This document shows, in pieces, positions 15,785-50,506 of a DNA stretch of 64,000 nucleotides. The stretch is from Flammeovirga sp. SJP92 (GTDB taxonomy: Bacteria > Bacteroidota > Bacteroidia > Cytophagales > Flammeovirgaceae): assembly GCF_001583495.1 (NCBI RefSeq), contig NZ_LQAQ01000014.1:1-64000 (forward strand), in the 5' to 3' direction. How positions within the stretch are numbered: position 1 is the first letter of the stretch; the number at the start of each line of letters is the position of its first letter. The position numbers and the translations under genes are program-made. Under the pieces are notes generated by a model. That model searched no databases and had not been told where the DNA came from. It saw nothing but the letters and a program-made list of their open reading frames with translations.

Positions 15785-15820
15785 AGAAGCTATTTCACGT
15801 GTTGTGAAATAGCTTCTCTT
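15785..15820 (+). terminator. terminator of the amidohydrolase gene
   Basis: A perfect 14-bp stem (AGAAGCTATTTCAC and complement) with a five-base loop, then CTTTATTT. Confidence 0.7.
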
Positions 15821-15855
15821 TATTTAAGTACCAGGACAAATGATATTTTTTTTAT

Positions 15856-15980
15856 CCTAATACTTATGTAGCCCCTGTACACTGTCCACCGTACACACTG
15901 TACGGTGTATAGTGTACAAGCAGTACGGTGAATAGCGTACAGTCTGTACGGTGGGTAGTGTACTAAACATTCACTTTCTT
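15856..15980 (+). repeat. dispersed repeat A, copy 1: array of four 23-bp units
   Basis: The core is four adjacent 23-bp units: one inverted (15875-15897) and three direct (15898-15920, 15921-15943, 15944-15966), each built on GTACGGTGnnTAGTGTAC. Units 1 and 2 pair with 17 of 20 positions to form a long hairpin. Homology to copy 2 (50335-50458, opposite orientation) extends into both flanks (TCCTAATACTTATGTA side and AACATTCACTTTCTTC side). It sits between two convergent genes, behind the amidohydrolase terminator. Confidence 0.8.
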
Positions 15981-16009
15981 CCACCCTATTCATTAGATTG
16001 AGATATGAT

Positions 16010-21085: not shown

Positions 21086-22138
21086 TTATTGTAGAATATA
21101 AGCTACAATTTCCTCAACGGTTCTTCTAGCGGTTTTTCCAACTCCATAAATTGTTGCCGAAGCATAGCCAGTCCAGTTTCCCATTCCCACTAGCCATAAC
21201 CCCTCTTGCCCTAGTACTTTAGTATTCTTTGTCTTTACTTTTTCATTTTCAACAATATTCAATGAAGAAAGATAATCCAACTTTGTACTAAAGCCAGTAC
21301 ACCACAATACAGTATCAAATTGTTCATGAGTACCATCTTCCCAAATTACACCATCTGAAGTAAAAGTGAATGTGCTTGGTCTATGATTCAACACCCCTCT
21401 TTCTCTTGCATCTTTCACAGAATCGAGCATTACAATATCACTGATTGAATAGGCTTCCTCTGAGATTTCACCTTTTAAATATTCTCTGTATTTTTTATTC
21501 GCTTGCTCAAAAAGGTGTCGACCATCTACGTCATCAGGTAAAAAATTTGGAGGTGATAAAGTAGCCCACTGTACTTTTTTATGTTGAGTCAATTCTGCCA
21601 CTAGTTGAGCTCCGCTATTTCCTCCTCCAACAATCAATAATTTATCGCCTTGAATATCTGAGGGCTTCTGATAGTCAACAGAATGCAACTGTTGTCCTAA
21701 AAAAGAATCTATTCCTTCATATTGAGGAATTTTTGGTCCTGATGCTGTTCCTGTTGCACCAACCACTGCTTTCGTTAAATACTCTCCTTTATTGGTTTTG
21801 ATACGGTAAAGTCCATTTTCATAAACTGTATCCTCTACTTTTACAGGTCTTTCAATTGGGAAATTGTAACGTTTTTCGTATTTCTCAAGATAACTGATAA
21901 ACTCTTTTTTGGTTGGATATTCCTTTTCAGGAGGAGGTAACATCCACCCAGATAAAGAAGAATAGACCCCTGGAGAAAATAACTGAAGTGAGTCCCAAGC
22001 TTTATTCCATGCTCCTCCTGCTTTTTGGTTATCATCTAAAATTAAAAACTTCAAACCATGCCTATTTAAAAAATAAGCCACTGACAATCCTGCTTGCCCA
22101 CCTCCTATTATTATTACATCAAATTTATTCATTCTCAA
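21086..22138 (-). CDS. ArsO-like flavin-dependent monooxygenase
   Basis: A 350-residue flavoprotein. The N-terminal FAD-binding Rossmann motif is IIGGGQAGLS (about 10-19). The NADPH-binding motif VGGGNSGAQ lies mid-protein, and a C-terminal ATG-type segment reads WCTGFSTKLDYL. The stretch LFSPGVYSSLSGWMLPPPEK, followed by YPTKKEFISYLEKY, is typical of the ArsO family, NADPH-dependent monooxygenases found in arsenic-resistance operons. No ars gene is nearby, so an arsenic role is not shown here; other small-molecule oxidations are possible. A repeat-B palindrome lies 27 bp upstream of the start codon. Start could equally be the second Met, two codons on. Confidence 0.75.
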   Translation of the reverse strand: MRMNKFDVIIIGGGQAGLSVAYFLNRHGLKFLILDDNQKAGGAWNKAWDSLQLFSPGVYSSLSGWMLPPPEKEYPTKKEFISYLEKYEKRYNFPIERPVKVEDTVYENGLYRIKTNKGEYLTKAVVGATGTASGPKIPQYEGIDSFLGQQLHSVDYQKPSDIQGDKLLIVGGGNSGAQLVAELTQHKKVQWATLSPPNFLPDDVDGRHLFEQANKKYREYLKGEISEEAYSISDIVMLDSVKDARERGVLNHRPSTFTFTSDGVIWEDGTHEQFDTVLWCTGFSTKLDYLSSLNIVENEKVKTKNTKVLGQEGLWLVGMGNWTGYASATIYGVGKTARRTVEEIVAYILQ

Positions 22139-50287: not shown

Positions 50288-50320
50288 AATCCCAATCAGT
50301 TTTGGTTGGGATTTTTTTAT
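50288..50320 (+). terminator. terminator of the RND efflux operon
   Basis: The stem AATCCCAA / TTGGGATT with a ten-base loop is followed by a run of T. Confidence 0.75.
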
Positions 50321-50334
50321 AAGTAATAAGGTAG

Positions 50335-50458
50335 AAGAAAGTGAATGTTTCGTACACTACCCACCGTACACACTGTACGCTGTTCACCGTACTGCTTGTA
50401 CACTATACACCGTACAGTGTGTACGGTGAATAGTGTACAGACAATACATAAGTACTAG
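50335..50458 (-). repeat. dispersed repeat A, copy 2: array of four 23-bp units
   Basis: Units at 50349-50371, 50372-50394 and 50395-50417 are in one orientation and 50418-50440 in the other, matching copy 1 (15856-15980) reversed. The outer pair of units (50395-50417 and 50418-50440) can form a hairpin with 19 of 20 positions paired. It lies between convergent genes, just after a terminator, as copy 1 does. Confidence 0.8.
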
Positions 50459-50506
50459 GACAGAAAAAGGAGCAATTTTAGGTTTTATCTTTTTTCCTGA
50501 TTCTTA

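Follow-up and report, generated by a model that had tools for sequence, protein, structure and literature searches.

A four-unit hairpin repeat of Flammeovirga as the probable core of a lineage-specific MITE-like element

An array of four repeat units occurs twice in the window, the whole 64,000-nucleotide stretch analysed here from the marine bacterium Flammeovirga sp. SJP92, whose draft genome (G000) comprises 123 contigs and 8.49 Mb. This array is probably the hairpin-forming interior of a non-coding MITE-like element restricted to its lineage, for which an enzyme acting in trans at TA would be needed and whose propagation would be linked to the hairpin. Several traits of a MITE are observed: the element is short, non-coding, multi-copy and intergenic (the two window copies measure 167 and 183 bp, and its own genome has 12), and it shows presence or absence at orthologous sites. 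The non-autonomous mobile family suspected in the sequence-only reading is supported by the 12 copies, by presence and absence between species and by the empty site of a window copy. New here are the constant number of four units and the covariation of the spacers. Our search of the literature found no work joining Flammeovirga and MITE.

The core is 87 bp long and is built of one inverted and three direct 18-bp units (GTACGGTGnnTAGTGTAC) with 5-bp spacers between them. This means that the exactly adjacent 23-bp units first described here are real, 23 bp being one unit plus one spacer. Within the window, eight unit matches with at most three mismatches were seen, against 0.06 expected from shuffles. 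Core A occupies 15877-15963 on the plus strand, with the inverted unit 1 at 15877-15894 (minus) and units 2, 3 and 4 at 15900-15917, 15923-15940 and 15946-15963 (all plus), separated by the spacers ACACT, AAGCA and AGTCT. Core B lies at 50352-50438 on the minus strand, with spacers ACACT, AAGCA and AGTGT, the first and third of which are fully complementary; its units fall at 50352-50369, 50375-50392 and 50398-50415 (minus) and 50421-50438 (plus), and this reversed order confirms the opposite orientation of the two copies. The homology of about 125 bp including flanks is also real but slightly longer, 144 bp at 90% (15847-15990 against 50325-50468), and no other place in the genome matches copy A as well as copy B does.

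Full cores occur 12 times in the source genome, on 9 contigs, and four times in a congener (G004) that we take to be Flammeovirga aprica, where the flanks place three of them at the sites of own copies C14a, C6 and C61a. A DNA search of 38 genomes with the core found it in these two. A covariance model run on 18 genomes of the family again found it in these two, and in none of the remaining 16, seven of them congeners and nine other members of the family; in each genome 150 first-look candidates were scored, out of as many as about 1,570, and very weak copies may be missed. Among plasmids, no match to the core was obtained. Viral relatives were tried and rejected: 18 stretches carry CACCGTAC-N5-GTACGSTG and none has the unit array, 13 of them having an ATTTT or AAAAT spacer palindrome and three a single unit-like match (up to three mismatches). 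The palindrome in those 13 stretches of the viral contigs (L121-L138), CACCGTACATTTTGTACGGTG or its AAAAT form, is unrelated to the unit; it stands at two places in five contigs, the second copy often within about 45 bp, and it looks like a paired binding site.

The sequence-only reading had held that just two copies with no variation in unit number would point to a simple duplication; the copies are 12 and not 2, yet the number of units is indeed constant, with four units in 12/12 copies. Genome-wide, 70 unit matches with up to three mismatches were found (42 for the reversed-pattern control), of which 51 have two mismatches or fewer; 48 of these 51 form the 12 four-unit arrays, and a variable unit number was thereby rejected. 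One of the remaining three lies at C35 in apparent coding sequence, and the other two overlap at C81, where the flanks are retained and the core is reduced to a collapsed 32-bp palindrome. An autonomous element bearing the unit was likewise sought and rejected, there being no unit with up to two mismatches outside the arrays, C35 and C81.

Copy A is read as a putative MITE of 167 bp at 15827-15993 (plus strand), from the TA at 15825-15826 to the TA at 15994-15995. Its left terminal repeat (15827-15842, plus) matches AGTACTAGGACAAAAG at 14 of 16 positions; the right one (15978-15993, minus) is degenerate, with 9 of 16 matches here and 11 in its F. aprica ortholog. At this site a segment of about 165 bp, present in F. 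aprica, is absent from two other species (G005 and G003), which retain the downstream gene end and the upstream terminator-like hairpin (15785-15817, plus, downstream of the left gene); since that hairpin is also found in these genomes that lack the element, it probably predates the insertion. In the BLAST comparison with G005, the left match ends at 15821 and the right one starts at 15987, the two being one base apart in G005, and the resulting edges (15822-15986) lie 5-7 bp off the TA reading. Copies A and B are flanked by TA at either end, as are other members of the superfamily described below; the empty-site alignment of copy A is not base-exact at the edge, and the TA edges are a reading by eye because pairwise alignments put a few bases inside the gap. 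G003 also carries an insertion of different sequence, located beyond the terminator hairpin as seen from this site.

Copy B, directly behind a stop codon, would be a MITE of 183 bp at 50322-50504 (minus strand), from the TA at 50505-50506 to the TA at 50320-50321, with ends matching the superfamily terminal repeat at 12 and 11 of 16 positions. Both copies contain an internal copy of the terminal-repeat motif: TATCCTAATACTTA at 15853-15866 (minus), which may represent the right end of a mini-MITE, either nested or abutting, and TAAGTACTAGGACA at 50449-50462 (plus). Judged by eye, the right flank of both copies, GAAACATTCACTTTCTTC, is similar to the right-end module found in further superfamily members. 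F. aprica has a different superfamily member almost exactly where copy B lies, so that an exchange of interiors is possible. Elsewhere, the C61a core is absent in G005 and G003, where the edges are not sharp, and the cores of C14b, C61b and C120a are absent in F. aprica; the F. aprica contigs or alignments stopped short of the sites C32, C44, C102, C120b and C88, and C99 gave no match.

The ends of the window copies resemble those of a TA-flanked MITE-like superfamily that extends over the source genome, with the terminal repeat AGTACTAGGACA (for example L145, L163, L165, L167 and L172). The end AATACTTAAGTACTAGGACA has 36 matches with up to three mismatches, against one for the reversed control, and at least one of the 36 (L175) resembles coding sequence. 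The nearest paired ends span 162-259 bp and enclose several interior modules; neighbouring members abut, often head to head, as TGTCCTAGTACT-TA-AGTACTAGGACA, with one TA common to both. When the 10,984 TA-preceded 16-mers of the window (both strands) were scored in the same way against AGTACTAGGACAAAAG, 2 reached 14 matches, 4 reached 12, 10 reached 11 and 143 reached 9. A further lone superfamily end, AATACTAAAGTACTAGGGCA, lies at 21207-21226 of the window, on the minus strand.

Only for the two window copies and the F. aprica ortholog of copy A could a terminal repeat be found at each end. For the other 10 own copies, both ends were not found within 200 bp; the flanks that these copies share are of other kinds, mostly GGATAG.... 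One of them, C120b, has a left end (15/16) at 138 bp without a right end, and L068 of F. aprica similarly has a left end (16/16) at 147 bp alone. The flank module GGATAG...GAGCTGAATA has five matches, all beside core copies. Another interspersed repeat, CGTAGACCCATAATTGAAATTTT..., is about 63 bp long; it stands beside L068, at L120, and is matched 16 times in the source genome, at C84, C111, C12 and other places.

TA is the target of IS630, and the source genome has a single match to the IS630-type family PF13358, L186 (C39:10013-10462), in two frames. A role of this element as the direct parent is not supported, as its ends, TA-CATTGTAAAC and GTTTACAGTG-TA, differ from the superfamily ends. 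An L186-like end, GTTTACAATGTA, was seen just left of the cores C120a and C61b. The genome also holds seven matches to the Y1 transposase family: two are shorter remnants with stops (L071 and L072), and four genes of 173-186 aa (L073, L074, L076 and L077) we take to be RAYT-like by length and motif. Candidates for a REP-associated transposase thus exist, but none of the seven Y1 loci carries the array within about 1.5 kb on each side; these loci contain just four single unit-like matches (up to five mismatches), in L072, L075 and L076. Among the families searched (PF13358 and Y1), no partner transposase with matching ends was found.

The 16 cores (12 own and four of F. aprica) align without gaps, and the whole core is one quasi-palindrome, in which unit 1 faces unit 4, spacer 1 faces spacer 3, and the start of unit 2 faces the end of unit 3. 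The best fold is the whole 87-nt block in 9 of the 12 own copies and unit 1 on unit 2 in the other three (C32, C120b and C102); as an alignment-wide structure the latter hairpin was rejected, its covariation not being beyond that of shuffles (118/500). Folded as RNA, nine of the cores gave shuffle z-scores of -4.9 to -13.1. The plus strand folds better in 16/16 cores, the advantage ranging from 3.1 to 16.5 kcal/mol. Five near-constant columns in which most pairs are G.T account for part of this: counted across every pair and copy, G.T cells number 75 and A.C cells 5, and once these columns are set aside the figures are 8 and 5. The five columns may descend from one founder, thus weighing little more than one event.

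The spacers vary more than the units, with 58 of 240 cells off the commonest base against 34 of 1152. When orthologs are counted once, leaving 13 sites, and G.T is allowed, spacer 1 is paired with spacer 3 at 48 of 65 positions (shuffle mean 39.3, p 0.00045) and the two are fully paired in 7 of the 13 sites (shuffle p 0.0001), in shuffles that ignore relatedness. With all 16 rows the pairing is 57/80 (p 0.0019), and the control spacer pairs 1-2 and 2-3 gave no pairing signal in the same test. For the whole structure, the cells paired (1/500), the covariation score (1/500) and the cells changed on both sides (11 against 4.1 in shuffles, 0/500) are above the shuffles; two of the five measures, pairs changed on both sides (116/500) and further pair types (341/500), are not. 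Watson-Crick pairs between spacers 1 and 3 number four of five in C14a and C88, three in C120a, two in C44 and C102, and none in C32 and C120b. Even with G.T allowed, these spacers are incompletely paired in 6 of the 12 own copies, and the F. aprica copy L067, in which three spacer pairs and two further ones are gone, is decaying. The earlier suggestion of selection for structure thus stands in part: it gains from spacer covariation beyond shuffles on some measures, and it is weakened by the null measures, the incompletely paired own copies and the decaying copy. Pairing looks as if it were maintained in source copies and lost in residents.

Both window copies lie between convergent genes, as had been noted. 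This is not the rule for the family, since mechanical ORF calls place only 7 of the 12 own copies in convergent gaps, four between tandem genes and one between divergent genes; in 4/4 tandem cases the core is oriented as the genes. The sole ORF of at least 70 aa across an own core, one of 80 aa at C61b, is purely mechanical. As for the statement that both window copies sit just behind a terminator, copy A follows the hairpin at 15785-15817, and copy B has a hairpin on its opposite side, directed from the opposing gene. A strict script covering 200 bp found a terminator-like hairpin on the left in 2 of the 12 own copies (C14a and C61a) and one on the right, pointing the other way, at C14b and weakly at C102, and none at most own copies; the terminator claim therefore holds for the window and was not borne out for most copies. 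The C102 core stands between two 170-bp direct repeats (L062:4752-5229) that are 91% identical and 308 bp apart, start to start.

Other origins of the array have to be weighed against a MITE-like element. It is possible in principle that recombination or template switching between intergenic mosaics exchanges modules, the core itself not transposing. The flanks common to copies over differing lengths, the recurrence of flank modules in different combinations, the different MITE of F. aprica at the copy B site and the direct duplication adjoining C102 all fit such an exchange; however, the segment present or absent at copy A against two species has ends matching the terminal-repeat family, and we consider module exchange unlikely as the main explanation. 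A simple duplication within the region, with no wider family, could draw on copy B being the best match to copy A, and has practically no chance: it is refuted by the copies on nine contigs and the four in F. aprica.

The core could also be a structured RNA kept for a host function, such as 3'-end protection, an RNase III substrate or an sRNA, with an unknown route of spread. The prevalence of G.T over A.C on one strand, the better folding of the plus strand, the spacer covariation and the agreement with gene orientation at the four tandem sites speak for such an RNA. Against it, at most 4 of the 12 sites are shared with F. aprica, as this draft assembly has just four copies; L067 has lost several pairs; outside the five near-constant columns the G.T cells number 8 against 5 A.C cells; no promoter was seen by eye; a terminator precedes the core at C14a and C61a; and no Rfam match was obtained in the window at the gathering threshold. 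A conserved host RNA is thus quite unlikely. The REP/BIME-like family first proposed, in which a RAYT (Y1) transposase would act on single-stranded DNA to move short extragenic palindromes, is very unlikely. The core is indeed palindromic, extragenic and repeated, and the genome has Y1 matches, including the RAYT-like ones; yet the array is missing from 7/7 Y1 loci, the unit number is fixed, and the window copies have terminal repeats. REPs are described as 20-40 bp long, with a GTAG or CGTC tag, a high copy number and an often repeat-flanked RAYT (PMC3733652), and as usually numbering more than 100 per genome (PMC2817692), against 12 copies here. The repeated block is 87 bp and not a 20-40 bp palindrome, no such tag is seen by eye at the core ends of the 16 aligned copies, and no repeat-flanked RAYT was seen here.

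Judged by description and not by sequence, BrickBuilt, from Porphyromonas gingivalis (Bacteroidota), is the known element that comes closest. BrickBuilt is described as an intergenic, species-limited MITE of 19 copies with 23-nt tandem repeats and predicted long stem-loops, with terminators and/or polyadenylation sites predicted beside 10 of the 19 (PMC4596501). Its repeat number varies, the length of one element differing between two strains (991 and 807 nt); its ends, for example GAGACCTTTGCA, are like those of ISPg1/ISPg9 and similar to those of other MITEs of the genome with different interiors, and its target duplications differ in length (PMC4596501). The two share the 23-bp period, a stem-loop built of repeats, a limited host range, terminators near some copies and, at the window copies here, ends that resemble those of MITEs with different interiors. 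Unlike BrickBuilt, the element here has four fixed units, one of them inverted, in TA-flanked segments of 167 and 183 bp with other ends.

Among other short elements, RUP (about 107 bp) has ends resembling IS630-Spn1, which is hypothesised to move it, and Streptococcus pneumoniae has 110 RUP and 125 BOX, overrepresented between convergent genes (PMC3049150); the part of that report available to us does not mention a four-unit palindrome (PMC3049150). Like RUP and BOX, the present element is a short structured repeat with putative terminal inverted repeats, often between convergent genes; it differs in its lower copy number and in that a partner IS is named for RUP and none here. TA flanks likewise recall RUP and IS630-type MITEs, but the sole IS630-type gene of this genome has other ends. 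ERIC, which is the same as RU-1, is an imperfect palindrome for which we know of no 23-bp unit structure. It is an intergenic MITE of enterobacteria (PMC10969869), and RU-1 is 127 bp long (PMC2759123); compared by description and not by sequence, ERIC and the core are both intergenic, and their hosts differ. MITE transcripts are said to form stable stem-loops in general, and such elements can insert into one another (PMC10969869).

Under the preferred reading, a MITE-like element with a hairpin core, the element would be non-autonomous and moved in trans by a Tc1/mariner-IS630-type transposase or another TA-duplicating enzyme. Insertions would persist mainly downstream of genes, where they presumably do least harm. 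The four-unit palindrome would be retained because the hairpin would matter for propagation, given that spacers 1 and 3 change jointly from copy to copy and that copies already resident may decay. TA-inserting miniature elements are normally thought to need terminal repeats alone. It is conceivable, though doubtful, that propagation involves recognition of the core in cis, as a hairpin of single-stranded DNA or RNA, the 18-mers of the core being read by sequence and its spacers only by pairing; new source copies would then keep complementary spacer pairs. If true, the propagation of a TA-inserting miniature element would include a step that depends on structure.

The intergenic regions of the source genome appear as mosaics of TA-flanked mini-elements. 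Beside BrickBuilt, the present repeat would be another MITE-like element of this phylum with a 23-bp period, in this case fixed in the form of a single long hairpin. Its spacer covariation raises the question of whether an internal hairpin is active in mobility, or whether such palindromes are self-correcting.
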